The notes below the pieces were generated by a model. It was given only the letters and a program-made list of their open reading frames with translations. It had not been told where the DNA came from and made no database searches. The translations under genes were made by a program, and so were the position numbers. From the NCBI GenBank assembly GCA_943327105.2, contig CALPVV020000016.1, positions 1 through 34,424 on the forward strand: 34,424 bases of DNA. Direction: 5' to 3'. Shown piece by piece: positions 5,503 to 33,504 of the stretch; the stretch's first letter is position 1, and every line of letters begins with the position of its first letter. The stretch is from Nitrosovibrio sp. Nv4 (GTDB lineage Bacteria > Bdellovibrionota > UBA1018 > CAIMNF01).

Positions 5503-5520
5503 AAAGAACCCTGAATTCGC

Positions 5521-6816: not shown

Positions 6817-6822
6817 AAAAAG

Positions 6823-7152: not shown

Positions 7153-7175
7153 GCCAAAATTTAACACGAATTAGG

Positions 7176-7204
7176 TTCAAAAAAACAGTCACTTTGGTTA
7201 CTAT
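7176..7204 (+). promoter_or_regulatory. Putative sigma70-type promoter of the lipid operon
   Basis: TTCAAA (7176-7181) and TACTAT (7199-7204) are 17 bases apart and match 4 of 6 and 5 of 6 consensus bases. Only 8 bases separate the -10 box from the ATG at 7213, and there is no Shine-Dalgarno sequence, so the transcript would start at or next to the start codon. Confidence 0.45.
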
Positions 7205-7212
7205 CTCATTTC

Positions 7213-8139
7213 ATGTTAACGCAGGCCATTAGCACCAAATTACAAGATCCTTTGAACCGGCTTTACCGCGAGCGGGTTGCTCAGGCGTTGGCACGTGCTT
7301 TTCAGTCGACGCCGTTGACTCCGAATATGGTTACGGTCATTCACACCATGATCGGTGTATTGGGTGCCTTTCTCATTTACCGTGAGTCCTATCTGTATGC
7401 AGTTCTTTGTTTCGAGCTTCGCACCATTCTTGATTGCATGGATGGAATTCTTGCTCGATTGAAAAATCAAAGTACGGCAACGGGGCGCGCACTTGATGCT
7501 ATTGGCGATGGTATTTCATTCAACTCGCTGATGATTGCCGGTACCCTGCGATTGATTCTTGATTTCAAGGCTTATCCTAACCCCATGATTGTTGTCGGAG
7601 TGATGTTTTTTGCATTTGTTTCCGTTCACTCTGGTGTGGTTTATCAACTCATGCGCCGTAAGCTCACATCGATTGCGCACAAGGAAGTCGATATTGTTGA
7701 AACGGAATGGCGCGATATTTATGAACAGGTCAAGAACTCGAACCCTTCTTTACTAGTGAAGTTCAGTTACTGGATCGATTCCATGACCATCAAGTTTGTT
7801 TCTGAAGAGTGGTACCTCAAGGTGAAGAAACGTAAAGACCTTGAGAACTGGAGAGAAAAGGCCATTCAAGAGGCTGAAATGATGCATGAGCTTGCGTGCC
7901 GCACCCGCAAGGTCGAGTTCCGTCGTGCCGTTCGTGCAGCCTCATTTGTCAGTGATGACAACGTGTTTTCTTTAATGAGTATTTGTTTTGTTGTTTTCGG
8001 CGTATTTCACGCATCTTTTTTACCCTTTGTGCACCCGGTGTTGATCGCTTTTTCTGTAGGGTTGGCGTATTCGATTCTATCTTTGTCGCTCGGGCTTCAC
8101 TATTACCACAACTTCCTGCACGGGGTTTATCGTGAATGA
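7213..8139 (+). CDS. CDP-alcohol phosphatidyltransferase family protein
   Basis: A 308-residue membrane enzyme with the complete family signature D74-x2-D77-G-x2-A-R82-x8-G91-x3-D95-x3-D99. These residues bind divalent metal and CDP, and they catalyse transfer of a phosphatidyl or similar group from a CDP-activated donor to an alcohol. Hydrophobic helices lie around 38-70, 100-150 and 255-305. A charged region of roughly 80 residues (about 155-240), longer than in simple PgsA-type enzymes, is inserted before the last helices. Donor and acceptor are unknown. Its stop overlaps the next gene's start (ATGA), so it is translationally coupled to the MMPL exporter, which suggests the exporter moves its product or a derivative. 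Confidence 0.9.
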   Translation: MLTQAISTKLQDPLNRLYRERVAQALARAFQSTPLTPNMVTVIHTMIGVLGAFLIYRESYLYAVLCFELRTILDCMDGILARLKNQSTATGRALDAIGDGISFNSLMIAGTLRLILDFKAYPNPMIVVGVMFFAFVSVHSGVVYQLMRRKLTSIAHKEVDIVETEWRDIYEQVKNSNPSLLVKFSYWIDSMTIKFVSEEWYLKVKKRKDLENWREKAIQEAEMMHELACRTRKVEFRRAVRAASFVSDDNVFSLMSICFVVFGVFHASFLPFVHPVLIAFSVGLAYSILSLSLGLHYYHNFLHGVYRE

Positions 8140-10619: not shown

Positions 10620-10637
10620 TAGTATTGGACGAATTAA

Positions 10638-11405
10638 ATGATCAAGAACGCGATCGCCTGGCTAGGTGAACTCACGATTTTTACTCAGCGCACGCTCGAG
10701 TCCGCTCCAAAAATTTGGAGACGGAGGGGTATCTTTTTGAATCAATGCGAATTCATTGGTGTCAGTAGTCTTGGCATTCTTTCAGTTGCTGCGATTTTCA
10801 TGGGCGCGGTTCTGGGTTATCAACTTTATACCTCTTTTGCGCTTTTCGGTGCCCAGGCATTGGTTGGCGGTACTGTGGGTGTTTCAATATTCAGGGAAAT
10901 GGGCCCAGTCATTGGCGCCATCATGGTCACCGGTCGTGCAGGTGCGGCGATTGGTGCCGAGATCGCCAGCATGCGAGTTTCAGAACAAATTGATGCACTT
11001 GAAGTGATGGGCGTGAACCCTTACGAATATCTCGTTTTGCCGCGTGTTTTAGCAGGCGCGATCATGATGCCTTTATTGGCCTATATTTTTGGTGGAATCG
11101 CGACACTTGCTGCATGTGGCATTGCTTGTGGTGTTCTTGATTTGAGTTTTCCGGTGTTCTGGAAAGAATTCCGTTTGTGGGTTGATGCAGTTGATATTCT
11201 TCACTGCACGATGAAGGGCATCAGTTTTGGTGCGGCTCTTTCATTGCTCGGCTGTTTTTATGGTTTCCGTGCTCAAGGCGGAGCAAGAGCGGTTGGTTTT
11301 TCAACACGTTCAACCGTGGTGGCAAGCTGTTTGACTATTTTGTTGTTGGATTATCTTTGGACCATGGTGCTCCCGGTACGTGGTTCCATCATCGTATTGC
11401 ATTAG
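10638..11405 (+). CDS. MlaE-family ABC transporter permease
   Basis: A 255-residue inner-membrane permease of the MlaE family. Typical features are GVSSLGILSVAAIFMGAVLGYQ near the N-terminus, the conserved FREMGPVIGAIMVTGRAGAAIGAEIASM segment and EQIDALEVMGVNPYEYLVLPR, the helix that normally contacts the MlaF ATPase. About five or six membrane helices. In Mla-type systems MlaE dimers work with an MlaF ATPase and hexameric MlaD to move phospholipids between inner and outer membranes. The MCE protein is encoded directly downstream, but no ATPase gene is in this operon, so the ATPase must come from elsewhere if the system is ABC-driven. It lies 18 bases after the MMPL gene. Confidence 0.93.
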   Translation: MIKNAIAWLGELTIFTQRTLESAPKIWRRRGIFLNQCEFIGVSSLGILSVAAIFMGAVLGYQLYTSFALFGAQALVGGTVGVSIFREMGPVIGAIMVTGRAGAAIGAEIASMRVSEQIDALEVMGVNPYEYLVLPRVLAGAIMMPLLAYIFGGIATLAACGIACGVLDLSFPVFWKEFRLWVDAVDILHCTMKGISFGAALSLLGCFYGFRAQGGARAVGFSTRSTVVASCLTILLLDYLWTMVLPVRGSIIVLH

Positions 11406-15349: not shown

Positions 15350-17203
15350 TTAATTGCCGATGGTTAGAGGTGTGCTGTTTGCAATGGTGAGGGTCAGATC
15401 ATCCCGTAGAGCGTGAGTGAGTTTCTCATCTTGGCAAAAAACAGCGGTCTCATAGCTGTGTTCAGCGGAATAAGTTTCAAAATTGTAACTACCGATTGCC
15501 GTTACGACATCATCGGTAATCGCCACTTTTGAATGAATGTATTGAAAGTGTTGCCAAGTATTGAAGTTTGGAACGGTTGCCAGAACTTCAAGCTTACCCC
15601 GTCTTAAAGCGGTGTTGAGGTAGCCTGTGATGTCGTTCATTCCGCTGGTAAAAAACTTCTCAAGAGGGCGTTCTGTTTTCGGATAAGTTTTTAAGAAGCC
15701 GCCATCGATTCCGTTGGTGATGAGGTTCACGGGTAATCCTGATTTGGCTTTGGCAAAGAGCTTGCGATAAATCTTAGTGCTCCAATTTTCGTTAAATATC
15801 GGATTTTTCTGAAAGCTTACAATTTGAGTGGTCAGTAAAATATCTTTTTCGGCACGAGAAAAAGTTTCAAAATAGGCCTTCGATACTTTGTATCTGTCTT
15901 CGTTAGGACCTTGAGAAATGAATCGACAGAGTCCTGGTGTCTGTTTGGTCAGCCATTCAGAGTAGTTTTCCGACCCTCGAACGCCTGCATTTCGTTCTGC
16001 TTCCTTGCGGGAAAGAACTTCTTTTTTGAATGCGATTGGAAACTCCTCACGTGTGAATCGTTCCCAAAGCTTACCGTAGTCTTCAAGCATGTCGGTCACG
16101 ATCGGGCCTTCGACTCGTACATCGGTATCTTTGTTGAAGTGGTTGTAACCGGTGGCCTTGTTTGCGCGATCAACGAGATTTTGCCCGCCCACCACTCCGC
16201 GTTCACCATCAATGACAAAATATTTCGAGTGAAAAAGCCCTTGGTTTCTGCCAACACGAAGAAGGTCATCGGATAAGGCGACTTTGACTCCGTTTTTGCG
16301 AAGAGTCTTGATCGTCTTGTTGAAGGCGACTTTACCCCAAACTTTTTCCATGATGACGCGAACATCAAGGCCAGCTTTAGCTTGTGCAATGAGGGCATCA
16401 ATCAGCTTGCGCGATTCTTCCGTATAGGCAAACGACATCACAGCAACGTGAACATAGCGTTTGGCTTCTTTCACGAGTTTGATTTTTTCTGAAAACGAAG
16501 CGTTGTTCACCATGAGGCGCAGCTGATTTCCGCTGGTAAGTTCGGTGCGGGTTTGGCTATCAAGCGTAAGGTGATAATCCTTATTCCAAAAAGGTGAGGT
16601 GCCGTTAGAAGCCGGTGATCGGTTTGCCGATGTTGAACCGGTCGATTCATCATCAATTTCCTTCAAGCTGTAAAATGGCGGGTGAATCAACGAGCGCCAG
16701 TCGGTCGGTAGCAGGATGTCTCGCTCAAAATTCAGCTTCCAGCGATTGAATCGGGTGAGCTCAAAGTGCTTGCGGGTGGCATCGTTGAAGTGATTGCTTC
16801 CCATTCTTCTCTTGAACAGGGCTGAATCAAAAGTAAAAAGTTTCTGGACCGTTTCGGGTGAAAGGTCTTGAACCGGCACCAGGGTCATTTTCTTGGTATT
16901 GAAAGTGAAAGAAAGATGGTTGCGATCTTGGTCAGGAAGATTTTCGTATTTTGAATTTTGAAGATTGATCGAAGCGTGGTTTTCACCGATCAAGCCAGCG
17001 CTGACTTGATTGAAATAGCTGATCAGCGCTGAGTAGGGCAGGATTCCGCCATTCAGGTTTGCATCTGCAAATGGATAAAGGGTACACGCAGTGGTGATTT
17101 TTGGGTGACAGGTTTCGCTGGTGAAAAGCGGGCTTTTTGCTTGCGCAAGGCTTACCGATGAAAGAATCAGAAAAATGAAAAGCGTCTTTGAAAACTTGAA
17201 CAT
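15350..17203 (-). CDS. Secreted phospholipase D-like protein (first paralogue)
   Basis: A 617-residue exported protein with signal peptide MFKFSKTLFIFLILSSVSLA (cleavage near 20-22). It has two HKD motifs: LFHSKYFVIDGERGVVGGQN near 325-345 and YIHSKVAITDDVVTAIGSYNFE near 555-575, each with the HxKx4D triad followed by GGxN or GSxN. Both are intact, so it is probably active as a phospholipase D, cardiolipin-type transphosphatidylase or nuclease; the sequence does not decide. About 200 N-terminal residues before the catalytic part have no known domain. GGAGG lies 10 bases before the ATG. It lies 66 bases downstream of a clear paralogue in the same direction, so the two may be co-transcribed. 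Confidence 0.9.
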   Translation of the reverse strand: MFKFSKTLFIFLILSSVSLAQAKSPLFTSETCHPKITTACTLYPFADANLNGGILPYSALISYFNQVSAGLIGENHASINLQNSKYENLPDQDRNHLSFTFNTKKMTLVPVQDLSPETVQKLFTFDSALFKRRMGSNHFNDATRKHFELTRFNRWKLNFERDILLPTDWRSLIHPPFYSLKEIDDESTGSTSANRSPASNGTSPFWNKDYHLTLDSQTRTELTSGNQLRLMVNNASFSEKIKLVKEAKRYVHVAVMSFAYTEESRKLIDALIAQAKAGLDVRVIMEKVWGKVAFNKTIKTLRKNGVKVALSDDLLRVGRNQGLFHSKYFVIDGERGVVGGQNLVDRANKATGYNHFNKDTDVRVEGPIVTDMLEDYGKLWERFTREEFPIAFKKEVLSRKEAERNAGVRGSENYSEWLTKQTPGLCRFISQGPNEDRYKVSKAYFETFSRAEKDILLTTQIVSFQKNPIFNENWSTKIYRKLFAKAKSGLPVNLITNGIDGGFLKTYPKTERPLEKFFTSGMNDITGYLNTALRRGKLEVLATVPNFNTWQHFQYIHSKVAITDDVVTAIGSYNFETYSAEHSYETAVFCQDEKLTHALRDDLTLTIANSTPLTIGN

Positions 17204-17269
17204 AAAGCCATGGCCTCCAATCGTAATGATCGGAACAATTCAGCCATAACGTTAAGTCAGGTTTGTGTT

Positions 17270-19276
17270 TTAATTCTGTTCTGTCGAGTCATCTGACGAA
17301 TCGACTAGAACCGGTGTCGAGTTCACGATGTCTCTGATGTAGTCGCTCTTGAGATCGCGAACTAATTGACGGTCATTACAGAAAATAGCTGATTCATGGC
17401 TATGTTCTGCTGAGTAGGGCTCGAAATTGAAGCTGCCGATTGAAGCCATGGTGTTATCGATCAGCACCGTTTTTGAGTGAACGTACTGGAAGTGCATCCA
17501 AGCGTTGAAGTTCGCATGTGTGATGGTGTCATCCAGGTAGCGTTTGTATTTTCTAGCGCCTCTCAAGCCAAGCCAGACACTCATTCTGGAAAGGAAGCTG
17601 GAAGGCTCTTCACCCCGTGCAATCTGACGGGCGTAGCGTCTTTGGCGTCTGCGTTCACGCCTGGGGTTTTTGTTTCCCATGGCAATGTTCTGCCCGATTT
17701 CCGCAAAACCCCCATCAATGCCGTTGGCAACGAGGTTTACTTCGACGCCGTTGTCAGCCGAATCAAAAAGAGCCGAGAACATCCGTGTTGTTTCTTCGTC
17801 TTCTTCTTGAAAGCCGTCTTCGACTTCATCCTGATCGTACTCAATATGCTGACTGGTCAGGAAAAGTTCGCGTTTTGCGGCTCTGAAATATTCAGAATAG
17901 GTTTTGGATAAAATCGTATTTGATTTCTGAGGTCCCTGAATCACGTAACGGCAGACACCTTCGGTGCCGGTTTCAACCGATGAAAACCAGTTTTCGTAAC
18001 GATCGGTACCGCGGGTTCCTGCAAGTTTTTCCTGTTCTTTACGCTGGCTGATCAGCACATTCAATTGCTCGACGGTTCGGCCTTGGTCGAGGTTGAATCT
18101 TGCTGTTTTTCTTTCTGATCTAGGCACATCATAGCGATCTTTAATGGTCGTGAACTCATCAAGAATATCGGTGACCATAGGGCCATGAATGAGTACGTCG
18201 GTGTCTTTGTTCCAGTGGTTGAAACCGGTTGAGTTGTTCGAACTATTGACGATGTTTTGCCCGCCAATGATTGCGGTTTCATCGTCGAAGATCCAGACCT
18301 TATTATGAAAGAGAGTTCTCTTTTTCTTGCTCAGGCTGAACATATCGTTTGCCAGAAGAAGTTTTACTCCGCCCTGTGTGAACCTTTCCATGGTTTTACG
18401 AAACACCGTAACGGTCCAAAGTTTTTCAAGAATGACTTGAACTTCGACCCCTTGCTTTGATTTTTCAACCAGCGCATCGATCAACTCAAAAGAGCTCGGG
18501 TCAGAGGCGAAAGACATGACCATGACATAGATCGACTTTTTCGCAGCTTTGACTTGGGCCATTTTTTCTTTGAATGAGTCTCCATTGACGAGAATCTTCA
18601 ATTGATTTCCACGGGTGAGTTCAGATTCTGAAAGCGTATCGATCTTGCGGTTCCAATCAGCTTTCAGAATGTTGGAGTCAGCTCGGATTTCATGACTGGT
18701 TCTGAAGTAGGAGTCTTGTTGTTCTTGTGTTGTACCGATGTTTCTCACAGGTGGATGAATCAATGATTTCCAGTCAGACAACAGAAACATGGTTCTTTCA
18801 TAGCGTTGGGTCTCTTCATTGAAAGTGAGTTGCTTGAATGAATTTACTTTTGATTCGACAAAATCAAGCCCACCGTTACGACGGGTGAACTCAGTGTCAT
18901 CTTGAATGAAAAGCGATTGCGCACTTTCAGGTGAAATAGGCAGGTTGGGTGTGATGCTCATTTTGGTCGTATTCACTTGAAAGGTAAGACTGTCGAGCGA
19001 GATGTTTAATAACGTGTGATTCGTAGACTCGAAAAAACGATCAGGATTTGGTTTGATTAGTCCGTTAGACGCGAAGGAGTAATAATCAGCCAGGGTTTTA
19101 AAGTCGACATTGAATTTCTCAATCAGGGTTCCATTTGCATCATAAGCATGACGATAAAGTGGATTGTTTGAAGTGATGGTAACTTCGAATGCGCGCGCAG
19201 CAGAGTCTGCCAACAAACCTACGGTCAGCAGTATCAAGATATTGAAATATTGGACTAGTCCCTTCGGAACCCGCAT
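17270..19276 (-). CDS. Secreted phospholipase D-like protein (second paralogue, charged insertions)
   Basis: A 668-residue exported protein with signal peptide (hydrophobic 10-24, cleavage near ARA/F at 29). HKD motifs are LFHNKVWIFDDETAIIGGQN near 322-342 and YVHSKTVLIDNTMASIGSFNFE near 597-617. The sequence aligns with the neighbouring gene through most of its length (for example GNQL, VMSFA, HxNKDTD, GPMVTDIL), so the two arose by duplication. Unlike its paralogue it holds an acidic stretch near 475-495 (DQDEVEDGFQEEDEETTR) and a strongly basic stretch near 535-555 (NPRRERRRQRRYARQIARG). Activity is likely, but phospholipid versus nucleic acid cannot be decided. No Shine-Dalgarno is present; a promoter ends 8 bases before the ATG. 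Confidence 0.9.
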   Translation of the reverse strand: MRVPKGLVQYFNILILLTVGLLADSAARAFEVTITSNNPLYRHAYDANGTLIEKFNVDFKTLADYYSFASNGLIKPNPDRFFESTNHTLLNISLDSLTFQVNTTKMSITPNLPISPESAQSLFIQDDTEFTRRNGGLDFVESKVNSFKQLTFNEETQRYERTMFLLSDWKSLIHPPVRNIGTTQEQQDSYFRTSHEIRADSNILKADWNRKIDTLSESELTRGNQLKILVNGDSFKEKMAQVKAAKKSIYVMVMSFASDPSSFELIDALVEKSKQGVEVQVILEKLWTVTVFRKTMERFTQGGVKLLLANDMFSLSKKKRTLFHNKVWIFDDETAIIGGQNIVNSSNNSTGFNHWNKDTDVLIHGPMVTDILDEFTTIKDRYDVPRSERKTARFNLDQGRTVEQLNVLISQRKEQEKLAGTRGTDRYENWFSSVETGTEGVCRYVIQGPQKSNTILSKTYSEYFRAAKRELFLTSQHIEYDQDEVEDGFQEEDEETTRMFSALFDSADNGVEVNLVANGIDGGFAEIGQNIAMGNKNPRRERRRQRRYARQIARGEEPSSFLSRMSVWLGLRGARKYKRYLDDTITHANFNAWMHFQYVHSKTVLIDNTMASIGSFNFEPYSAEHSHESAIFCNDRQLVRDLKSDYIRDIVNSTPVLVDSSDDSTEQN

Positions 19277-22308: not shown

Positions 22309-23925
22309 TTAAAGAGTGAAGCCGATACCGAGGCTCGACATGAAGCGGTCGTAAGAATAAGAAGTAGAAACCGTCGAGATGTTTTTGATGTAATTCAAAT
22401 CAGCCATCACCGATATTTTTGGTGTGATGAATTTGAGTGCACCCAATCGGAAACTCATGTTTGAGTCTTTTCTAACCGGATCAAGCTTCTCATAGTTGCT
22501 GAATAGTAAATCAATGCCTTGATTCAAGGTCAGCAACGCTGGAAAGTTCATGCTATTGCTGATTCCAAACCCATAAGCTCGGTAGTATATCGAGCTACCG
22601 TTGGCGTTATTGATTTCATAGGCCAGGCTTGCACCAGGGTTGAAGTAGCGGTCGCCGGCAGATCGTCTTGCAGAGAGCGACATGTTCAGATTGTTTCCGG
22701 ATTGATCACTGTCTGAAAAGTAGTTTTGCTTGCGATAATTGACTTCGCCTTCCGCTCGCCAGTAATCATTTAACTGATGGCGAATGTATGCGCCAGCACC
22801 ATAGGTATAATTGAATTTCTGAAATTCATACTCACTACCAGCGTCTGTCGGATCAATCGGAGCATTCTCGAACATGAAATTTGAATCGAGTTTCAAACCG
22901 TATGTGGTTTTGGCTAGAGCCTTATAGTTGAAATTAAAGGATAGATTGTTGGTGAAGTATTCATATCGTTTTGTGTCTGAATTGAAGTTCTTGTTGTACG
23001 ACGCCCGATAGCCCGCAACGATCTGCACCAAGCCTGCTGGAGCGCTCATGAACCCCAAGCCAGCTAGAATGTTTTCTTTGATGGTTGATGCATTCGATGA
23101 GCCTTGGGTATTACTCAGCCCTGTTGGTAACTGCATGATGTTTGAATCATATTGCGTGCTAAAGGCTGCATTTCCGAACCATTGTCCTTTTGAAAATGGC
23201 TGAAGCATCTTTTCAGAAGCATCGAGAATGTTTTTCGCATTAGCGTTTGAAGAGTCGTTCTGAAGAACTTTTTTTGCCAATGTCTCGGTTTCAACGATTT
23301 CTTGAACACCACGAGTACTGAAATACAGCTTGAACAAACTAAGACTTTTGTAATACTGGGCGATCATTTCAATTTCGATGATGCCGGTCCCTAAAGCCTG
23401 GTCAAAATTCAATTGAGCTTCTGTGTAGCGTGCGGCATTGAAGTGCCCGATTCCAAGAAATAAATGGGATGGTCCTGCATTGAATTTGAGTGCTGCTGAC
23501 TTTTCAAAATACGGGCGGGCTTCTTCAAACTTATTCTGTTTGTTCAGTAAACTCGCAATTTCATAAGCATAGGGGCCACGCTCATTTTCAGGTTTAGCTT
23601 GATAGAGCTGTTGATAAACTTCGAGCGATGTCTTTTCATCGCCTTTGCCCTTCAGTGCAAGTGCCTTTAATTCGAGGTACTCAACGGTGAGTGGAGATTC
23701 TTTTAAAAGTTCATTAAGAATTTTGACCGCTTCTTCAGTCTTTCGTTTATTGAAAGCGATAACTGCCTCTGCGTATCTTGATTCCCGACCAATGCCGGGA
23801 TGCGATTCCTGGGTGTCGACGGGTTGAGTTGCATTGGCAATGGTTGAAATTGCCATCAAACTGCAGAGGTAAAAAAAAGTTAATGAAAATCTTTTATGAT
23901 TACAGCCGTGTCTTTTGTGACCCAT
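22309..23925 (-). CDS. TPR protein with C-terminal outer-membrane barrel, Slam-like architecture
   Basis: A 538-residue exported protein. After a signal peptide (basic 1-12, hydrophobic 14-30) come tetratricopeptide-like repeats at about 48-240 (for example AVIAFNKRKTEEAVKILNELLKE). The last ~290 residues (from FSTQYDSNIMQLP) show alternating beta strands with aromatic girdles, ending in SSLGIGFTL, as in an outer-membrane barrel. TPR followed by a barrel resembles Slam (DUF560) proteins, which move lipoproteins to the cell surface; whether it is a true Slam homologue is not settled. No ribosome binding site is seen. It is divergent from the FecR-lipoprotein pair, with only 28 bases between the ATGs. 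Confidence 0.8.
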   Translation of the reverse strand: MGHKRHGCNHKRFSLTFFYLCSLMAISTIANATQPVDTQESHPGIGRESRYAEAVIAFNKRKTEEAVKILNELLKESPLTVEYLELKALALKGKGDEKTSLEVYQQLYQAKPENERGPYAYEIASLLNKQNKFEEARPYFEKSAALKFNAGPSHLFLGIGHFNAARYTEAQLNFDQALGTGIIEIEMIAQYYKSLSLFKLYFSTRGVQEIVETETLAKKVLQNDSSNANAKNILDASEKMLQPFSKGQWFGNAAFSTQYDSNIMQLPTGLSNTQGSSNASTIKENILAGLGFMSAPAGLVQIVAGYRASYNKNFNSDTKRYEYFTNNLSFNFNYKALAKTTYGLKLDSNFMFENAPIDPTDAGSEYEFQKFNYTYGAGAYIRHQLNDYWRAEGEVNYRKQNYFSDSDQSGNNLNMSLSARRSAGDRYFNPGASLAYEINNANGSSIYYRAYGFGISNSMNFPALLTLNQGIDLLFSNYEKLDPVRKDSNMSFRLGALKFITPKISVMADLNYIKNISTVSTSYSYDRFMSSLGIGFTL

Positions 23926-23949
23926 TTTAATAAAACTTTAACATTCCGA

Positions 23950-23955
23950 TACAAT
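23950..23955 (+). promoter_or_regulatory. Possible -10 element for the FecR-lipoprotein unit
   Basis: TACAAT matches 5 of 6 consensus bases and overlaps the first possible ATG (23954). It stands 7 bases before a second in-frame ATG (23963), which would then begin a leaderless message. No good -35 is seen, so this is tentative. Confidence 0.3.
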
Positions 23956-25054
23956 GATTACTATGCGGAACGTAAGTGTCTTAGCCGTTGCCATTCTTTT
24001 TTTTGTATCTGATGTTTCACTCGCCAAAGAATTAGCGGGTGAGATCGTTAGTGTCAGCGGTATGGTTTTTATTCGTCAAGACAAGCAAAGCGGTTCTGCT
24101 CCTAAAAGTCCTCCTAGGGCAAAGCCGGGAGAAAATGTTTACTCAGGCGATGTCATCAACACTTCCAGTGAAGGTTCAGTCAAAATTTTGATGCGCGATA
24201 AATCGATTGTCGATTTGGGACCATCTTCTCTTTTCAAAGTCGACGAATATCAGCACCAACATGGTGGAGACCGTAAAGCCAAACTCAATTTGGCTTTCGG
24301 TAAACTACGCGTAGCGGTTACCAAGAAAATTGAAAATGGTGGAAAGTTTCAGGTAAAAACAAATGGCGCCACGATGGGTGTCCGGGGAACTGAATTCATC
24401 ATCAAGGAAGATATTCCTGATCGTCTTGGTAAAAAGGATTCATCTTCAAGTCCTGAAGCACCTAAGCAAAAAACTGAAATTACCGTCGTGCAAGGCAAAG
24501 TTGAGGTGAATACAGCACCTGTGCCAGTGGCTAAAAAAGATTCTGAATCAGTGAGTGCTGCTGCGCCGAAAACAATCAGTCTGACTGCAGGAACACAATT
24601 GACTACCGGAGCAGGCGTTCCTTCTACGGCACCAATGGCACCAGTCAAAATATCGGAAGCACAGATGAAAACACTGACTTTCGAAACCCGCATTGTTGAT
24701 AATACATTCGCCAAAGCCGTAACGATTGAGCCGATGAACAATAATGATCAGGGGCAGGGCCGACCACAAGAAAGCAACGAAGGGCGTGGCAATGGCGATA
24801 AAGGAAAGTCTTTTGCCGGCGGAAATTCAAATAATGAGAGTCGTTCACCTGCCAGTGATGGTCGAAGTGGTGCAAGCCCGAGTGTGATTGCACCAATGAT
24901 CAATATCGCCTTACCACCTGTGGTCATGGGACCGCCTCCCGTTATTGATGTTCCAGGTGTGCCTACCAATCCATTTCAAAATAATGGTTTCAGAAACAAC
25001 ATGAAGCGTTTGCATGTGACTATTGTGATTCCTACAACAGGAGCGATGCCATGA
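23954..25054 (+). CDS. Periplasmic FecR-domain protein
   Basis: A protein of up to 366 residues with a signal peptide ending at DVSLA. The FecR domain (about 28-165) shows AGEIVSVSGMVFIRQ, KPGENVYSGDVINTSSEGSVKILMRDKSIVDLGPSS and GKFQVKTNGATMGVRGTEFIIKED. In FecI-FecR systems this domain relays signals to a sigma factor, but no sigma factor is encoded here, so it is more likely a structural or ligand-binding periplasmic protein. The C-terminal third is low-complexity (Asn/Gly/Ser, then Pro-rich). The start is ATG 23954 or ATG 23963. The stop overlaps the next lipoprotein's start (ATGA), so the two are translated together. Confidence 0.85.
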   Translation: MITMRNVSVLAVAILFFVSDVSLAKELAGEIVSVSGMVFIRQDKQSGSAPKSPPRAKPGENVYSGDVINTSSEGSVKILMRDKSIVDLGPSSLFKVDEYQHQHGGDRKAKLNLAFGKLRVAVTKKIENGGKFQVKTNGATMGVRGTEFIIKEDIPDRLGKKDSSSSPEAPKQKTEITVVQGKVEVNTAPVPVAKKDSESVSAAAPKTISLTAGTQLTTGAGVPSTAPMAPVKISEAQMKTLTFETRIVDNTFAKAVTIEPMNNNDQGQGRPQESNEGRGNGDKGKSFAGGNSNNESRSPASDGRSGASPSVIAPMINIALPPVVMGPPPVIDVPGVPTNPFQNNGFRNNMKRLHVTIVIPTTGAMP

Positions 25055-28000
25055 TTTTGAACCTGAATCCGGTATTCAAGAGTTTCCTCGTGGCATCTTT
25101 GATGCTCACCACAAGCGCCTGTTCTTTACGCGAACGCAAATCCAATCCGTCAGTCAGTGTTACACTGCCTCAGGAATGGGTGTCAGCGGTCAAAAGAAAT
25201 AAAATCAAAACAATTGCTTCAACAACTGAAGGCACTTCGGGTTTTTCAAAACCAACCAGTCTTGCTGATTTTCAATGTTTTGCCCTCAATGTTAAAGGTC
25301 CAGGTATTTTACCTGACCCCCGCTTCGGTTGTGATAATCCTTCCGCAGGCATTGGTATCATGGCCGGCTTTATTCCGGTTACCCAGGGTTCACTGGACTT
25401 GATGGTTCCTGCCGGCACTTCAAGAGTAGTGCAGTTGATCGGTGTTCAAAGTGCGATCGGTTGTCCGAGTTTTAACGAGCTACTTTCTAATCAAGGAATT
25501 GATTCATTTAAAAATTCGATCGGCGAACCTTACTTATTGGGTGAAACCACGATTGATATTTTTGATGATACTTCCGCGACCATTGTTGCTGCCTTCAATG
25601 CAGACAAGTTGGCATTCAGTGGTTGTCGAAATCAATCTTCGAATTCGAGTACGGCTTCTGGCCCTCCTACGATTGAAATTCAAGTCGAAGGCAATTCGCC
25701 TTTTATTCAAAAAGATCATTGTTCAAGGGTAAGACTTTATGCCAGAAATTCTTCGGGCTTGCATCCGGTCACTCTATTGCCGTCGATTGGTTTCCAAGAA
25801 ATGAGTGATACCTCAAATGTTTATTCCGATAGCGGTTGTGAAATTGAGTTCAATACACCTGTCACTTTACCGACACCTTATGATGCAAACAGTAACCCCG
25901 GAATGGACTTTTATGTAAAAAGCACTGCAACTCTAGGTAGTAGTTTTGGTGTGACTGCAACCGTGAGTTCCAATGGGGTTTGGGCTGTAAATCGGGCTAC
26001 ATTCAAAACGGTGAATGATCGACTTGAAATTCTCGGGCCCAATCATAACTTGTTTAAAGAGAATTGCGTTGCGATCACAATCAATAACTATAGTGGCCCT
26101 GCAAATAGCCCATCAGGTTCATTGTTGAGTTCTGGTTCTTTGAATGTTTCAATTCACGGAAATAACAATACCAATTCACCGTCGAGTACAAGACTTTATT
26201 CGAACAACTCTTGTGATGTATCGGCTGAGTATTTTTCTACCACTTCGGGAAACATGCGTTTTTATGAATTGAATACGCCAATTCCCAATTCATCTCAAAT
26301 GGTCTGGGCCAAGTCTTCAGTTAATGAAAGGGGATATCTCATTATTTCCCGTAGTAGCGGTGATGCAGAGCCGTTTGGTATCGGATTTGAATTCGGTTCA
26401 GCTCCGGTAATCACTGAAGGACAAAATCTTTCTTTTGATTTTGGAACACCAAAAAGTACTGATCTTTCAGTGAGTGGCAGCGGCTTCATTTGGTGTGATG
26501 GTGCGGATACCGGTGCTTTGCCTTCGGGACTAAGTTGGATACAGGTTTCTGGATCGAATAAGAAATGCACCATTTCAGGCACTCCAGCAGAAATGGGAGC
26601 TTTTACTATTCCGGTTGTTGCAAGAAACAATTTTGGAGGTTCTGTTGCGACTTCTGTAACGATAACTGTTCAAGTTGAAAGTATAAGGGATGGTGGTGGT
26701 ATAACGATCACATCTACAGATACTTCTACATCTACATCAACCGGAGTAGCCACTATTGCTTCACCTACGGTGACTTTGCCAATTATGTCTCCTTTTTTCA
26801 GTAATTCTACGTCACTAACTTTGGAAGTTAATTGTCAACCAAATGCAATTGTCAATCTGTCTAAAGATCCTGGTACGTTCACTATGGCCAGTGGCTGTCC
26901 AAACTCAGGTACAGTAACCCTTGGGCCAATTACTGAAAGTGCAGATGGGGTGTATGCGTTGTCGTTGACTCAATCTAACGGGTTTGAGGCATCGAACGCA
27001 TCCGTTTTTTTATGGAATGTTGATCGTACTGCCCCAGTTGCTCCACAGGTTCTCAGTCATGGAAATAATTTTACTTCTTCAATTGGTTCTCTGGTTCTTT
27101 CTGGTTCGTGTGAAGCGGGCGCGACTGTTGAAATCATGAAGAATGGTTGGACCATTCCTCAAACGGTAATCTGTTCCGATTTTGGTACTTTTTCTTTCAG
27201 TCTCTCTGAATTTACGTCAAATACTCCCGTGTCGCATGTCTATTCGTTAAAACAAACCGATAAGGCCGGCAATTACTCCTCAAGTACATCTTTCACTTGG
27301 AATCTTTCAGCTGGTGCTATGCCTCCAGTGGTCTTGAGTGAACCAATTTCAAATCCATTTTTTAGTAATGCAGATTCAATCGGTATCAGGGGGACTTGCA
27401 GTTTCAATGCTACTGCAGTGACGCTTTCTGGTTTATCAGGCACCTCTTTAGCGTTGGCTGAGGTTACTAGTTCCACCGGCACTATTTCAATGAGTGCCAC
27501 GAACGCGGTGATGCAAGCGGGTTGTAGTTCCGGTCAGTTTCTTTTTGTAGTGAATAAAACAGCGGTTGGAACTTATCAATTTACCGTGACTCAAACTGTT
27601 TCGGGTACGGTTTCTTCTCCGATTAATGTTCGTTGGGAAAAATCAGGTTGGGTTGCAACAAGCACTGTAAATGCTCCGGTTGCGCGTACCGATCATACCG
27701 GCATTTGGTCTGGCAGCGAAATGATTGTATGGGGTGGGGGTAACTCTGGTGGTAATACTGTTACTCGATTGAATAGCGGTGCCAAATTAAATCCGGTGAC
27801 CAATACGTGGACGCCCATATCGCTGTCTTCTGCACCTTTGGCAAGAAGATATCATTCTGCGGTGTGGACTGGTTCTGAAATGATTGTTTGGGGCGGTGAT
27901 GCAAATACTGGCACTGGTTCAACTACAAATATTCCAACTAATACGGGCGCTCGTTATCACCCGGTTTCTGATACTTGGACACCGATCAGTACAACCGGTG

Positions 28001-28704
28001 CCCCAATTGCACGAATAAATCATCAAGCGCTTTGGTTGCCAACAATTCAAAAAATGCTGGTCTGGGGTGGAAGTGATGCAACAAGTAGCACCTTTTACAA
28101 TACAGGCGCACTGTATCACCCAGCGACGGATACTTGGTCGCCGATGACCATCAACTCTGCGCCTTCAGCACGTATGAGTTTCACCATGGTTTTAGCAGGT
28201 TCAAAAGTGATTGTTTTTGGTGGTGAAGATTTACTTAGTTCATATTTAAACACCGGCGGTATCTATGACCCAGTCAATAACTCTTGGTCTAGTATGAGTA
28301 CTACGGGGGCTCCGTTGGTGAGAAACCATGCGGCCGTTTGGACGGGTTCTGAGATGTTGGTCACCGGTGGTTATGATGCTTCTGGAGGAGTGATCAGAAC
28401 GACTAAAAAATATAATCCGGCTACAGACAGTTGGACTACTTTAAGTAACGCAATAACCGCCCGTCAAAATAGTAGCGCAGTGTGGACTGGAACAGAGATG
28501 ATGGTTTGTGGTGGCTTAGACACAATAACTATTGGTACATGTGAGGCTTATAAACCAGTGACAAACATGTGGGTCAGTGCATCTTCTGTAGGTGCGCCAA
28601 CTGCACGCCAAAAGCATACCGCAATTTGGACTGGAACGAAGATGATCATTTGGGGTGGTAGTGGTAACACCGGTTCGGTTTACAACTCAGGTGGGATTTA
28701 CTGA
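25051..28704 (+). CDS. Large lipoprotein with Ig-like domains and a C-terminal Kelch propeller
   Basis: A 1217-residue exported lipoprotein; LMLTTSAC gives Cys24 as lipidation site. Residues ~25-450 are Ser/Thr/Asn-rich with no family I know. About 450-545 resembles a putative Ig (He_PIG) domain (GLSW, CTISGTPAEMGAFTIPVVARN). A TST-rich linker leads to three Ig-like units (about 570-865), two of which begin with PFFSN. Residues 867-1217 are a Kelch-type propeller with seven repeats of the pattern ARxxHxxxWxGxxMxVWGG. Such proteins usually bind partners or surfaces. The start overlaps the fecR-like stop by 4 bp, and the divergent TPR-barrel protein may export it. A run of nine T follows the stop without a good hairpin. 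Confidence 0.85.
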   Translation: MILNLNPVFKSFLVASLMLTTSACSLRERKSNPSVSVTLPQEWVSAVKRNKIKTIASTTEGTSGFSKPTSLADFQCFALNVKGPGILPDPRFGCDNPSAGIGIMAGFIPVTQGSLDLMVPAGTSRVVQLIGVQSAIGCPSFNELLSNQGIDSFKNSIGEPYLLGETTIDIFDDTSATIVAAFNADKLAFSGCRNQSSNSSTASGPPTIEIQVEGNSPFIQKDHCSRVRLYARNSSGLHPVTLLPSIGFQEMSDTSNVYSDSGCEIEFNTPVTLPTPYDANSNPGMDFYVKSTATLGSSFGVTATVSSNGVWAVNRATFKTVNDRLEILGPNHNLFKENCVAITINNYSGPANSPSGSLLSSGSLNVSIHGNNNTNSPSSTRLYSNNSCDVSAEYFSTTSGNMRFYELNTPIPNSSQMVWAKSSVNERGYLIISRSSGDAEPFGIGFEFGSAPVITEGQNLSFDFGTPKSTDLSVSGSGFIWCDGADTGALPSGLSWIQVSGSNKKCTISGTPAEMGAFTIPVVARNNFGGSVATSVTITVQVESIRDGGGITITSTDTSTSTSTGVATIASPTVTLPIMSPFFSNSTSLTLEVNCQPNAIVNLSKDPGTFTMASGCPNSGTVTLGPITESADGVYALSLTQSNGFEASNASVFLWNVDRTAPVAPQVLSHGNNFTSSIGSLVLSGSCEAGATVEIMKNGWTIPQTVICSDFGTFSFSLSEFTSNTPVSHVYSLKQTDKAGNYSSSTSFTWNLSAGAMPPVVLSEPISNPFFSNADSIGIRGTCSFNATAVTLSGLSGTSLALAEVTSSTGTISMSATNAVMQAGCSSGQFLFVVNKTAVGTYQFTVTQTVSGTVSSPINVRWEKSGWVATSTVNAPVARTDHTGIWSGSEMIVWGGGNSGGNTVTRLNSGAKLNPVTNTWTPISLSSAPLARRYHSAVWTGSEMIVWGGDANTGTGSTTNIPTNTGARYHPVSDTWTPISTTGAPIARINHQALWLPTIQKMLVWGGSDATSSTFYNTGALYHPATDTWSPMTINSAPSARMSFTMVLAGSKVIVFGGEDLLSSYLNTGGIYDPVNNSWSSMSTTGAPLVRNHAAVWTGSEMLVTGGYDASGGVIRTTKKYNPATDSWTTLSNAITARQNSSAVWTGTEMMVCGGLDTITIGTCEAYKPVTNMWVSASSVGAPTARQKHTAIWTGTKMIIWGGSGNTGSVYNSGGIY
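27649..28701 (+). repeat. Seven tandem Kelch repeats
   Basis: Seven copies of a repeat of roughly 45-55 codons, each with AR, a Trp-x-Gly turn and a WGG or equivalent. Similar DNA (a variant of TGGACTGGTTCTGAAATG) recurs near 27703, 27865, 28336, 28482 and 28626. The array starts with a lone W867-to-AP segment and ends with a repeat lacking that segment, as expected for a closed ring. Confidence 0.85.
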
Positions 28705-29697: not shown

Positions 29698-30252
29698 TTA
29701 TCGATTAAAAGTGGCGATGATCGATGCTTTAGCCAACATGTTTTTTTGAATATAAAAACCAACCATCGCACCCGATGCTTCTGAATCAAGAGGCAGCTTT
29801 GCTGTTTTCAATGCGTAAACTGTAAAAACGTAGCGATGAGGTTTGGAACCTGGTGGCGGACAAGCGCCATCGTATCTTGAACGTCCAAAGTCATTTCTTC
29901 CTTGAATGGAACCCTTTGGAAGATTTTTCATTCCTTCCGGCAGAGTAGTTTCATCTACAGGAATATTGAAGAGCGTCCAATGCCACCAGCCGCTGCCAGA
30001 GGGAGCATCAGGGTCAAAAACCGTGATCGCATAGCTTGCCGTTCCTTCGGGTCCATCGGTCCAGTCGAGGGCGGGTGAATCATTCTTGCCCTTGCACCCA
30101 AACACATTCGCAACCATCTTGTTGGGTAAGGATGCTCCATTATCAAATGAGGCACTGGTCAGAATAAACAGAGGTGCTGTCGGCTTTTCAGGTGCAGCCG
30201 AAGCGGTCATTGATGAAAACAGACTGATCAGGATGATTGCCGGTTTGATCAT
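29698..30252 (-). CDS. Secreted PEBP/YbhB-family protein (Raf kinase inhibitor-like)
   Basis: A 184-residue protein with a signal peptide (MIKPAIILISLFSSMTASA, cleavage after residue 19). The mature part follows the bacterial phosphatidylethanolamine-binding family: SPALDWTDGPEGTASYAITVFDPDAPSGSGWWHWTLFNIP, then GRNDFGRSRYDGACPPPGSKPHRYVFTVYAL. The DPDAP, WWHW and GxCPPPG parts line the ligand pocket in YbhB-like proteins, whose ligands are not well known. It is the last gene of the partner-switching operon; its ATG overlaps the STAS-like gene's stop (ATGA). An exported ligand-binding protein here may be an output or a sensor component. Confidence 0.9.
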   Translation of the reverse strand: MIKPAIILISLFSSMTASAAPEKPTAPLFILTSASFDNGASLPNKMVANVFGCKGKNDSPALDWTDGPEGTASYAITVFDPDAPSGSGWWHWTLFNIPVDETTLPEGMKNLPKGSIQGRNDFGRSRYDGACPPPGSKPHRYVFTVYALKTAKLPLDSEASGAMVGFYIQKNMLAKASIIATFNR

Positions 30253-30734
30253 CGTTTTAAAAAACGAAAATATTGTTCTTCAATTGCATCGAAATCAAGT
30301 TCATATTCCGTGCCGTCAACAGTCGCATTCATTTTAGGTGCCTTAAAATCGCGAATTTCTTCAGCACGTAAAAGCACTTGTCTTTCTTCATCCAGGTCTT
30401 CGATGAAGTAAGGTGCGTAGAAAGAAACGACTTTTGCATTTTTACTCAAAAATCCAGCAATCATGTTCATTTGCTGAACGACGATTTGAGGAACATTGAT
30501 GTACTCGATATTCACGCTTTGTCCATGCTGTTCGACCAGGCGGATCCATTCACGGATGCCGCAAGAGTTGATCATCTTCACTTTTTCAAGATCAAAGGTG
30601 ATGCGCGAGTTTTTCAGGTCAGCAACCTTTTCAATCAAAAGATCTTCGTTGATTGATCCCTCCACACGGATATGAATTATTTCTCCGTTAGTTTCGGAGT
30701 GAAACTTAAGTTGCCCCATTTCGATTGTGCTCAT
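30249..30734 (-). CDS. STAS-like anti-sigma factor antagonist
   Basis: A 161-residue cytoplasmic protein. Residues ~8-100 fit a STAS fold: IIHIRVEGSINEDLL, then SRITFDLEKVKMINSCGIREWIRLVE. Ser57 in the NSCGI loop sits where anti-sigma antagonists are phosphorylated by their partner kinase. The C-terminal ~60 residues (rich in Asp and Glu, DLDEERQVLLRAEE) are an extension not found in the short SpoIIAA type. It overlaps the RsbW-like gene upstream and the PEBP gene downstream by ATGA, so the three are coupled. Inferred role: binds the RsbW-like ATPase when unphosphorylated and is reset by the SpoIIE/RsbU phosphatase. Confidence 0.78.
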   Translation of the reverse strand: MSTIEMGQLKFHSETNGEIIHIRVEGSINEDLLIEKVADLKNSRITFDLEKVKMINSCGIREWIRLVEQHGQSVNIEYINVPQIVVQQMNMIAGFLSKNAKVVSFYAPYFIEDLDEERQVLLRAEEIRDFKAPKMNATVDGTEYELDFDAIEEQYFRFLKR

Positions 30735-31669
30735 GATTGCTTCCTCTCAAAAAGATGAAATGATTTTTCAAGTACCTGGTAGTGAAAAAAACGTTTGAAC
30801 TTGTGGATCACGATGATGAACTCGGTCGAGTTGCCATGATCGATGTTGATTACCAGTTTGTGCGCATGCTTCAAGATCAGATAAAGTCCAACACCGGCGC
30901 CACCTTCTTTTTCGGCAACTTTACCGTGTGTCAGGTAGTGATCGATGATGTCTTTGGTAAGGGTTCCGTAGAAATCCTTGATATTCAGAACGATTTTATC
31001 GGCATCCTCGATGATGTCGAGAGTGGGTGCCATATTTTGAGCCGAATGAATCACTTCTCTTCTGTTGACGTGGCGATGAAGGAATTTTCCTTCGCTGTCT
31101 ACAGGGGCATTGTAAAGTGCATTCGTAATCGATTCATTCAGAATTTGTTCAAGAATCGGTCTGAAGCCTTCGAAGGTATTGGTCAAATCGTGATGAGAAA
31201 TCGCGCTCTGAATCTGCCCCTCGATATTTTCAGAATTTTCAAACTTGGTATGGCTCTGGTGGGTGATCGGTGGGGTAATGAATGTTTCAGCATTCCAGAA
31301 CTTCTTCTCAACAGCGTAAGTCAGAAAATTACCGATATCATTGAGGGTGTGAGTGCCGGACATGCCGAAAAGGTGGCTTACCTTTGTTTCTTTCAGGATT
31401 TGATTCAGTTGTTCATGGTCGGTAAGGGTGGCGAACATGCTGAGTTTGTCGAGAAACTCAAAAGCCAGTTCACTGACTTCCTTGTTTGCTTTGTAGAATT
31501 CGTAATCGATCAAAATGAAATCCGATTCCTTGAAGTCTGTTCGATAGACTTTTTTGGGATGAATGAATTTCAATTTCGTACTTTTTGACTCTTCCAAATA
31601 ACGTTCCAGCTGTGGCAGGAACGTTTCGCAAGAATCAGAAAGAATCAATACCTGATGGACAGGTTTCAT
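30731..31669 (-). CDS. RsbW-like ATPase with receiver-like N-terminus
   Basis: A 312-residue cytoplasmic protein. The C-terminal half is a GHKL ATPase: N-box ILNESITNALYNAP (Asn178, Glu179, Asn183), a D-box around KDFYGTLT (Asp232) and the glycine-rich lid EKEGGAGVGLYLI (Gly256-Gly261). This matches anti-sigma serine kinases. The N-terminal ~120 residues begin VHQVLILSDSCETFLPQ and contain FILIDYEFYK with Asp55 in a phospho-acceptor-like place, suggesting a degenerate receiver domain. It lies between the phosphatase and the STAS gene, with ATGA overlaps on both sides. It probably phosphorylates the STAS protein. No sigma factor gene is nearby, so the final target is unknown. Confidence 0.82.
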   Translation of the reverse strand: MKPVHQVLILSDSCETFLPQLERYLEESKSTKLKFIHPKKVYRTDFKESDFILIDYEFYKANKEVSELAFEFLDKLSMFATLTDHEQLNQILKETKVSHLFGMSGTHTLNDIGNFLTYAVEKKFWNAETFITPPITHQSHTKFENSENIEGQIQSAISHHDLTNTFEGFRPILEQILNESITNALYNAPVDSEGKFLHRHVNRREVIHSAQNMAPTLDIIEDADKIVLNIKDFYGTLTKDIIDHYLTHGKVAEKEGGAGVGLYLILKHAHKLVINIDHGNSTEFIIVIHKFKRFFHYQVLEKSFHLFERKQS

Positions 31670-33504
31670 GATGCCTCCCTTTTGGCAATAATTAGAGTAA
31701 CGTCGTCGTCAGGTTTCGCACCTGCAAGAAATTCTTCAGCGTCTTTGATGATTCCACCGAGCATGTCTTCAGGGGTGCTTTTGACGTGGCTGAGAATGCT
31801 TTTGATGAAGCGTCTTTCACCATAAGCCTTTTTGTCGTGATTCTCCGCCTCGACAATACCATCAGTGATCATGACCAATACATCCTGATCATTCATACGG
31901 GTAGTGCCTTCGGTGTATTTCGGATTTTCGATGTGACCAAGGCGCTCGCCTTCAGCATCAAGCAATAGGGTGATGTCTGATTTTTGGGGTTCCTGATCAT
32001 TGAATCGATAAAGGTAAGGAGGGTTGTGTGATGCGTTTGCGTACTTCAGGGTCTGCGTTTTTTTATCATAAATTCCGATGAAAAAAGTCATCAGAATTTT
32101 TCCACCGACCTTGTAAACTGCAGAGTTGAAGTAATCGAGAATTTTACCTGGTGAATCAAGCAATTCAGGATGTTCTTCACAGATCTGGGGAAGAAGATTC
32201 GCAACACAGTTTGCGGTAGCAGTAATGAGAGCGGCAGGAACACCATGTCCGGTAGCGTCGGCAATGAAGAGTAGGGTTTTGTCTTGAATGGTTCTCGTCC
32301 CCCACCAGTCTCCACCGCACTCTGAAGCGGAAGCATAGTGTCCGACAACACTGATGCTTTCGGTGATGACTTTTTTATCCGGGAAGAAACTGTTTTGAAC
32401 GAGTTGAGCGACCGCAAGCTCGTTTTCCATTCGGGTCTTTTCTTTGACTTCTTCAATGTAACGAAGAAGTTCTTTACTCATGTAGTTGAACGAATCGGCA
32501 AGCTGGCCAAGCTCATCTTCATTTCTTTTCGGAATGAAATGGTTGAAGTTCCCTTTAGAGATTTGATCGGTTCCTTCGACAAGATCATCAATCGGGTTGG
32601 TCAGGCTTTTGGCGAGCAATGTTCCGAAGATGATGGCAAGAGAGATGATGATTCCGGCAAACGCGATGGTTCTTTTGAGTAAGAAATGAGCGACCTTATA
32701 CGCTTCTTCTTCATTGATTACACTGAGAGCAAGCCAATCATCAGGAGCTATTTTTGAAAAGGCGATGAGGTAGTTTTTCCCATCGATTTCCTGTCCAATT
32801 ACCCCTTCAGAAATACCACCACCAGAAAGTTTATCCAGAATGGTGATGGGGATTTGGATTTTTGAGGAAGTTTCAAAAATGGTTCCATTCAAATTCATGA
32901 GTGAATTCGAGAAACTTGAGTTGCGTGAAAATTGATCGGCAATTTCATCGCCTACAAATACGCCATAATGAAGGGTTTTATTGGTTTCATTGAAATAAAA
33001 AGTACGAATCACGGGTATGGAACCGAAGTGAGTGAAGTCGATGCTTTTCTTTTTGGCAATCATTGCCGGAAACTGTTCCCAAGGGGTAAGGGTGATTTCT
33101 TCAACATTGATTTTTTCAAGAGAGTGGTTTCGAAGTGCCGGCTCGTAAACAGTTGAGCCGAGTTTCTTGAACCCGCCGTCAAAAGAATAGCGCTCATATT
33201 GCAAGAGCGTCGTTTTCATGGCGGCTTTTTTAAACTCATCGGTTTGGAAATACGAAAGGTCTTGCAGAGAAAATGCGAGAAGGTCTGTTTGTTTTCCTTC
33301 CAGCAATTGAGTGATTTTCAGTTGAATCTCATGGGATTCACTTAATGCAGAGTCATAAATATATGACCTCTTATCACTTAAAAAGGTATTAAGAATATAT
33401 GGCAAATAAGTGGCGTAACTGAGCGCAATCACACCTGTGCCGAGGAACAGGATCTTTGTCCGGATGGAAAATTGAAAAGCCTTTTTGAGAAAGTCTTTTA
33501 GCAT
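31666..33504 (-). CDS. Membrane-bound SpoIIE/RsbU-type serine phosphatase with HAMP domain
   Basis: A 612-residue inner-membrane protein. One helix at about 17-37, a periplasmic sensor domain of roughly 230 residues, a second helix near 275-295, then HAMP (about 295-350, SLTNPIDDLVEGTDQISKGNF) and a short coiled coil. The C-terminal ~230 residues are a PP2C-type phosphatase with the metal-binding motifs GGDWWG, ADATGHGVPAAL, ITDGIVEAEN and KPDDDVTLI, all intact. It likely dephosphorylates the STAS protein encoded two genes downstream in response to a periplasmic signal. AAAGAG stands 6 bases before the ATG. It heads an operon of four overlapping genes and is divergent from a FecR-like gene 39 bases away. 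Confidence 0.92.
   Translation of the reverse strand: MLKDFLKKAFQFSIRTKILFLGTGVIALSYATYLPYILNTFLSDKRSYIYDSALSESHEIQLKITQLLEGKQTDLLAFSLQDLSYFQTDEFKKAAMKTTLLQYERYSFDGGFKKLGSTVYEPALRNHSLEKINVEEITLTPWEQFPAMIAKKKSIDFTHFGSIPVIRTFYFNETNKTLHYGVFVGDEIADQFSRNSSFSNSLMNLNGTIFETSSKIQIPITILDKLSGGGISEGVIGQEIDGKNYLIAFSKIAPDDWLALSVINEEEAYKVAHFLLKRTIAFAGIIISLAIIFGTLLAKSLTNPIDDLVEGTDQISKGNFNHFIPKRNEDELGQLADSFNYMSKELLRYIEEVKEKTRMENELAVAQLVQNSFFPDKKVITESISVVGHYASASECGGDWWGTRTIQDKTLLFIADATGHGVPAALITATANCVANLLPQICEEHPELLDSPGKILDYFNSAVYKVGGKILMTFFIGIYDKKTQTLKYANASHNPPYLYRFNDQEPQKSDITLLLDAEGERLGHIENPKYTEGTTRMNDQDVLVMITDGIVEAENHDKKAYGERRFIKSILSHVKSTPEDMLGGIIKDAEEFLAGAKPDDDVTLIIAKREAS

Follow-up and report, generated by a model that had tools for sequence, protein, structure and literature searches.

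The closest described counterparts of the system considered here are the Slam proteins, which carry tetratricopeptide repeats (TPR) at the N-terminus and a 14-stranded barrel at the C-terminus, and which have a lipoprotein gene adjoining them in 185 of 353 homologues (PMC5449769). In the Slam pathway, the periplasmic holdase Skp keeps the cargo unfolded, and in a reconstituted system Slam alone translocates it (PMC9090332). The cargo of cluster 1 type XI secretion systems (T11SS) carries an eight-stranded barrel at the C-terminus, with N-termini that vary (PMC12282271). The present study examined a three-gene locus at positions 22309-28704 of contig CALPVV020000016.1 (C16), from assembly GCA_943327105.2 of the phylum Bdellovibrionota; the whole contig (34,424 nucleotides) is referred to as the window. 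The locus encodes a TPR/beta-barrel protein, a FecR-domain protein and a large lipoprotein which, on sequence evidence, form one conserved module. In our assessment the best explanation, held at about even confidence, is a Slam-like exporter that has FecR as a subunit and surface lipoproteins tagged by a shared N-terminal head domain as its cargo, and the module may represent an unnamed machine placing exchangeable proteins on the cell surface.

An earlier reading of the window made from its letters alone (the sequence-only reading) had described this arrangement, and all three open reading frames (ORFs) were found at the positions it gave. The features are as follows, with loci of related genomes denoted by L numbers:

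22309..23925, minus strand: TPR/beta-barrel outer-membrane protein, candidate exporter, type 1, 538 residues (ORF; Pfam TPR_16; AlphaFold2)
23191..23799, minus strand: TPR helices, residues 43-245, presumed periplasmic (AlphaFold2 secondary structure; Pfam TPR)
22315..23184, minus strand: predicted 14-stranded beta-barrel, residues 248-537, with a YDSN motif at its opening (AlphaFold2; Slam-barrel profile match)
23950..23955, plus strand: putative -10 box TACAAT of a FecR-lipoprotein transcript (promoter scan; position kept in L026 and L027)
23954..25054, plus strand: FecR-domain protein, 366 residues, N-terminal signal-like stretch, likely start 23963 (ORF; Pfam FecR)
24149..24505, plus strand: FecR domain (Pfam, 56.9 bits)
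25051..28704, plus strand: lipoprotein, 1217 residues, candidate cargo (ORF; ATGA overlap with the FecR stop; Pfam Kelch and Big_6)
25051..25122, plus strand: lipoprotein signal peptide and lipobox TSAC, Cys24, Ser at +2 (read from the sequence)
25108..25650, plus strand: conserved N-terminal head domain, common to the cargo family (alignment A7)
27085..27297, plus strand: bacterial Ig domain Big_6 (Pfam)
27673..28701, plus strand: seven Kelch repeats (beta-propeller), the variable tail in the window genome (Pfam; repeat pattern)

The FecR and lipoprotein genes are coupled by an ATGA overlap of 4 bases, as had been read, and Pfam recovered the TPR, FecR and Kelch domains together with one Ig domain. 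TPR_16 reached 34.2 bits in the barrel protein (cut-off 32.7), FecR 56.9 bits (cut-off 24) and Big_6 30.5 bits (cut-off 27.6), while Kelch models lay far above their cut-offs in the lipoprotein, where seven repeats could be traced by pattern from residue 875 to the end. The protein scan covered 16 of the 44 listed window ORFs of >=100 residues.

The first protein had been called Slam-like, and its predicted structure has the architecture described for Slam. The AlphaFold2 model (mean predicted local distance difference test, pLDDT, 86.8) comprises TPR helices at residues 43-245 and 14 strands at residues 248-537. At E<=1, all 27 barrel family members compared matched TPR_2, and 22 of the 27 matched TPR_Slam. 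Seven proteins with SlipAM (DUF560, PF04575), one from the phylum (L122, 49.1 bits) and six from plasmids, served as the Slam reference set. Compared with these by hhalign, the barrel family profile scored 97.9% (E 5.7e-13), and the barrel domain alone matched the Slam barrels at 94.0% (E 1.4e-7) over 262 columns; among the decoys, a reversed Slam profile reached 1.1%, ten column-shuffled Slam profiles <=0.3%, and five E. coli barrels, used as single sequences, <=1.8%. By these profile comparisons, the barrel is remotely homologous to Slam over both the TPR and the barrel regions.

The partnership with FecR proved to be the firmest feature of the locus. Type-1 barrel homologues occurred in 41 of the 58 class genomes searched, the window genome included, and 43 class loci from these 41 genomes (the window plus 42 stretches of relatives) were taken from 52 matched stretches; L114 and L166 are additional class loci outside the 43. 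In five of the 43, the contig stops short of the upstream gene; in a further five it stops short of the gene that follows FecR. Of the 38 loci assessable for the upstream gene, 37 had FecR beside the barrel, 36 divergently and one in tandem (L039); L053 alone lacked it. Since the 2.3-Mb window genome holds only 4 FecR matches in all, this arrangement is far beyond chance. The remaining neighbours were not conserved: homologues of hisS, dut and GGDEF turned up at L025 alone of the relatives' 42 loci, a few of which are too short to include them. Outside the class, nine type-1 barrels were found in six genomes; FecR was divergent at all eight assessable loci, the ninth (L113) being cut, and a lipobox protein came next after FecR at 7/7 assessable loci, with the head in three of the seven. 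In family f22, the lipobox protein after FecR showed no significant likeness to the head at L108, L109 (twice) and L110. L109, whose content is the same as that of L078 (2-9485), holds two barrel/FecR/lipobox-protein modules in a row; in L078 the lipobox proteins measure 160 and 636 residues, and the double module adjoins a gene for a protein with CHASE2 and nucleotide cyclase domains. At L166, the end of a barrel lies at the contig edge and is followed by FecR and then by two heads in a row.

Two further barrel subfamilies were recognised: type 2 (alignment A6), which matched the type-1 profile at 99.8%, and type 3 (alignment A8), likewise matched at 99.8% and present in 82 of 368 phylum genomes. 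Of 22 type-2 loci, 20 were assessable, and in 19 of these FecR came directly after the barrel on the same strand. For type 3, it lay immediately upstream at 18 of 20 loci; at L202 it was one gene removed, and at L210 it was not seen. Three further type-3 loci had FecR upstream at L118 and L119 but not at L117, where the contig ends 356 bases upstream. These orders differ from that of type 1, and the barrel-FecR pair is therefore maintained although the order of the genes changes. Of the 20 type-3 loci, five (L192-L196) had been picked because heads were already seen nearby; among the other 15, a head was adjacent in four, and for six of the 15, heads had already been placed on other contigs. 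The window genome itself has a type-2 paralogue, a tandem barrel and FecR pair at L065 (G000:C19, 6206-11659) standing between a 454-residue lipobox protein and a 611-residue protein. The latter, encoded after FecR, was considered as head cargo and rejected, being 5'-nucleotidase-like and without a head; a 5'-nucleotidase homologue also follows the type-2 set in L172, L173, L178, L180 and L181.

The third gene was less constant in position. A head lipoprotein was the next gene after FecR at 17 of 32 assessable type-1 class loci, and in all 15 remaining cases the genome carries a head gene elsewhere. Linkage across relatives, which the sequence-only reading had put forward as a check, is thus supported for the barrel and FecR, and for the lipoprotein at about half of the loci. 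Stretches around 20 heads located away from the type-1 locus were inspected, and in 19 of them no barrel or FecR was present among the genes printed nearby, the heads standing alone or as tandem pairs or triples; L166 was the one exception. Tandem head lipoproteins of differing lengths, away from any barrel, stand at L150, L151, L153, L156 and L165, and such arrays look like local duplication followed by tail change. At L050, a second, short head ORF (1810-2235, minus strand) follows the 736-residue cargo gene and is probably a decayed copy, as one internal stop was read in the genome search.

Pairwise comparison of the 17 linked cargo proteins (136 pairs) detected likeness between heads in 84 pairs and between tails in 6; as these proteins were found through head similarity, the likeness of the heads is partly by construction, which does not apply to the unlikeness of the tails. 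The giant Kelch region named by the sequence-only reading does not recur as a constant element; what the cargo proteins have in common is the N-terminal head. Tail length ranged from 172 to 1507 residues. A named Pfam domain above cut-off was found in seven of the 17 tails and none in ten: Kelch and Big_6 in the window, Ig-like He_PIG in L025, SBBP in L027, LamG in L028 and NHL in L046, L049 and L062. RCC1 repeats were carried by the type-3 neighbours L192, L195 and L197. Serine followed the lipid-bearing cysteine in 40 of 52 head proteins, and three of the 52 had no lipobox by pattern; a lipobox-like pattern appeared in 42 of 530 other ORFs of >=150 residues at the same loci. Claims on cargo fold stop at the Pfam domains, because AlphaFold2, applied to the mature lipoprotein with five relatives, gave a model too low in confidence for its fold to be read (pLDDT 40.1, predicted template modelling score 0.29).

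With both partners described, it can be asked whether this is simply an ordinary type XI system whose barrel has drifted under the HMM (hidden Markov model) cut-offs and whose FecR is an incidental operon partner. The shared architecture, the remote homology and an adjoining lipoprotein gene, as at the Slam homologues cited above (PMC5449769), would all fit. FecR, however, is more constant than the cargo (37/38 against 17/32 loci) and stays with three barrel subfamilies, the cargo architecture differs, and the (incomplete) gene tables of six plasmid Slam loci name no FecR. We give this alternative little credence; from its tight pairing with the barrel, FecR belongs to the core of the module.

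Heads and barrels also co-occurred at the level of genomes. Type-1 barrels were counted at E <=1e-20 within the class and <=1e-50 outside it (20 of 68 genomes were weaker and were dropped or retyped), type 2 at E <=1e-50 in class genomes only (8 of 29 dropped) and type 3 at a threshold of 1e-30; one dropped type-2 genome, G039 (1.5e-13), has a head, and counting it would switch its side. Of the 58 class genomes 46 carried a head, as did 109 of the 368 genomes of the phylum. Across the phylum, a barrel was counted in 132 genomes, 88 of which had a head, versus 21 of the 236 others (Fisher 2e-31, uncorrected for descent). For type 1 alone, the figures were 38/41 barrel genomes versus 8/17 others within the class (Fisher 3e-4), and 4/7 versus 59/303 outside it (Fisher 0.03).

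We infer the direction of transport, the surface location, the head as export signal and the role of FecR as follows. The barrel would be embedded in the outer membrane, the TPR domain lying on the periplasmic side, and would work like Slam: it would take lipoproteins that have already reached the outer membrane and pass their bodies through the barrel, leaving them lipid-anchored on the outside. The shared N-terminal head, which is constant and adjacent to the lipid anchor, in contrast to the varying tail, is suggested to be the tag by which cargo is recognised, and may also serve as the base for an exchangeable tail, in the window a Kelch propeller. FecR would be the constant periplasmic partner, with the TPR domain or the cargo as its probable binding target; that it may act as a dedicated gate or holdase is proposed by analogy with Skp in the Slam pathway and because it is the most constant partner.

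A number of observations weigh against this Slam-like exporter, beginning with the barrel itself. In the Slam/DUF560 search that the sequence-only reading had advised, both Pfam models of Slam stayed under their cut-offs: SlipAM gave 14.1 bits (cut-off 22) and TPR_Slam (PF24575) 26.4 bits (cut-off 35.2). SlipAM was absent among the best 25 of the 55 families matched by the 27 barrel members at E<=1, and at E 1e-3 it was found in none of the 58 class genomes and in two of 368 across the phylum, neither of them the window genome. When Slam barrels were used singly, three of the seven scored 31-51% and four 0.5-2.8%, the latter near the decoys (0.2-1.8%); the type-2 barrel alone reached 27.4% with Slam, and type 3 as a whole 78.2%. 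A Slam-barrel HMM ranked the barrel family first among the ORFs, with a best E of only 9e-4 and 0.43 for the window barrel. In Foldseek, the best solved match was BcsC (E 6.6e-10, template modelling (TM) score ~0.3), followed by OmpG and FadL; PelB was also among the matches listed, and no Slam structure appeared among the 50 best listed. The claim of Slam likeness therefore stands for architecture and remote homology to SlipAM proteins and falls for membership of Slam/DUF560: classing the barrel as a Slam was rejected on the missed Pfam cut-offs, and we term it Slam-like rather than type XI because of these, the uneven profile results and the lack of a Slam structure among the matches listed.

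The same Foldseek result lends some footing to another account, in which the barrel is a polymer or small-solute channel of the BcsC, PgaA or porin type, FecR an envelope sensor and the lipoprotein a periplasmic accessory. FecR domains are often regulatory, which would suit a sensor. Yet the TM score to the top BcsC entry is only about 0.3, the BcsC barrel is larger, with 16 strands, and the barrel profile scored 0.9% with PgaA and 0.2% with BcsC, a weak test with single E. coli sequences. Moreover, no polysaccharide synthase was found among the 16 window proteins scanned, and both the constant FecR partner and the head lipoproteins are left unexplained, so that a channel of this kind appears improbable.

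Further points against the exporter concern its partners and cargo. FecR was not beside the weaker class barrel relatives L114 (153 bits) and L121 (108 bits), nor beside the type-2 barrel at L189 among the 20 assessable type-2 loci. No head was detected in 44 of the 132 barrel genomes, including the type-1 genomes G026, G047 and G050, all of one genus, and 21 of the 109 head genomes had no counted barrel; a strict dependence of the head on the barrel is thus not borne out. Aspartate follows the lipid-bearing cysteine in L192, L197 and L198. In E. coli this residue means retention in the inner membrane, a rule that may not hold for the phylum Bdellovibrionota. No Pfam match to a C-terminal eight-stranded cargo barrel was obtained in the 17 cargo proteins, and the cargo of the module is constant at its N-terminal head, in contrast to that of cluster 1 T11SS, which is constant at its C-terminal barrel (PMC12282271).

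The head genomes without a counted barrel would also suit a scaffold, with barrel and FecR forming an outer-membrane anchor on which lipoproteins dock from the periplasm through their heads, in a BamB-like manner. A constant head is what a docking domain should show, and propeller-type tails (Kelch, NHL, RCC1) do recur in the cargo. Tails that are alike in only 6 of 136 pairs and extend to 1507 residues, on the other hand, fit outward-facing variable modules better than a single periplasmic task, and the Slam homology of the barrel also argues against an anchor. We regard the scaffold as unlikely.

The module is spread through Bdellovibrionota, with the model predator B. bacteriovorus probably included. 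Locus L197 of genome G190, probably B. bacteriovorus HD100, has a barrel (5196-7202, minus strand), FecR (7224-8141, minus strand) and a head lipoprotein with RCC1 repeats (8393-11068, plus strand). A genome report on two Bdellovibrio strains notes RCC1 repeats, but no toxin domain, in sequences that bear the annotation RTX toxin; a term search of its main text found no mention of FecR, lipoproteins or TPR (PMC5941755). A separate Bdellovibrionota display system, distantly akin to Slam, with at least three barrel subfamilies, a FecR subunit and N-terminal-head cargo, whose swapped tails (Kelch, NHL, RCC1, LamG and Ig-like) form a recognition repertoire, in B. bacteriovorus too, is a tentative proposal that we place somewhat short of even confidence.

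To our knowledge, the placement of large proteins on the surface of predatory bacteria is poorly known. Were the proposal true, an exporter, its partner and a recognisable tag would allow candidate surface cargo to be listed from sequence alone, and Slam-type export would extend beyond the TbpB-like cargo fold. The function of the module is testable by simple gene deletions in the predator.

Returning to the locus itself, the gap of 28 bp previously read between the divergent ATGs holds for the starts as called and becomes 37 bp with the second ATG of FecR. The second ATG (23963) is the more likely start, because the first is absent in L026 and L027, where a TATAAT/TATACT box stands instead, and because the second gives the same 37-bp gap in the window, L025, L026 and L027. 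The window's TACAAT box is retained in position as TATAAT/TATACT in L026 and L027; the promoter scan as a whole was not above background (11 sites versus 11.5 in shuffles). The intergenic region 23926-23962, as compared among these loci, suggests that FecR is transcribed without a leader, from ATG 23963 or close by. Elsewhere in the window, two adjacent PLD-domain proteins of 617 and 668 residues (15350-19276, minus strand) are likely tandem paralogues, a CDP-alcohol phosphatidyltransferase gene overlaps an MMPL-family membrane protein gene by 4 bases (7213-10619), and four ORFs at 29698-33504 (minus strand) each overlap the next by 4 bases, the first encoding a HAMP and SpoIIE phosphatase protein (31666-33504).

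A literature search returned no description of the TPR-barrel/FecR/head-lipoprotein arrangement in the titles or abstract openings found, and the module can be set beside four kinds of known system. The polysaccharide porins BcsC, PgaA and PelB likewise join TPR to an outer-membrane barrel; the module differs in its predicted 14 strands and in having no synthase among the window proteins scanned. With FecR-domain envelope proteins (FecIR, Lsa33, LipL45, LapA) it shares the FecR domain, in a protein whose N-terminus reads as a signal peptide and which gave weak matches, all under cut-off, to Lsa33 (41.2 bits) and LipL45 (36.9 bits), both of Leptospira, and to the LapA retention module (25.4 bits, cut-off 50). 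Unlike FecIR, the FecR of the module is paired with a TPR-barrel gene, and no sigma factor was found among the 16 proteins scanned. BamB-like proteins are propeller lipoproteins that serve an outer-membrane machine, and the lipoprotein of the window also carries a beta-propeller; the module lipoproteins differ in their separate N-terminal head and in exchangeable tails that include non-propellers. Slam and type XI systems are the nearest in kind, sharing TPR with a predicted 14-stranded barrel, an adjoining lipoprotein gene and remote profile homology, whereas the module is set apart by its constant FecR partner, by its divergent, tandem or FecR-first gene orders, and by the many head genes of its family that sit elsewhere in the genome.

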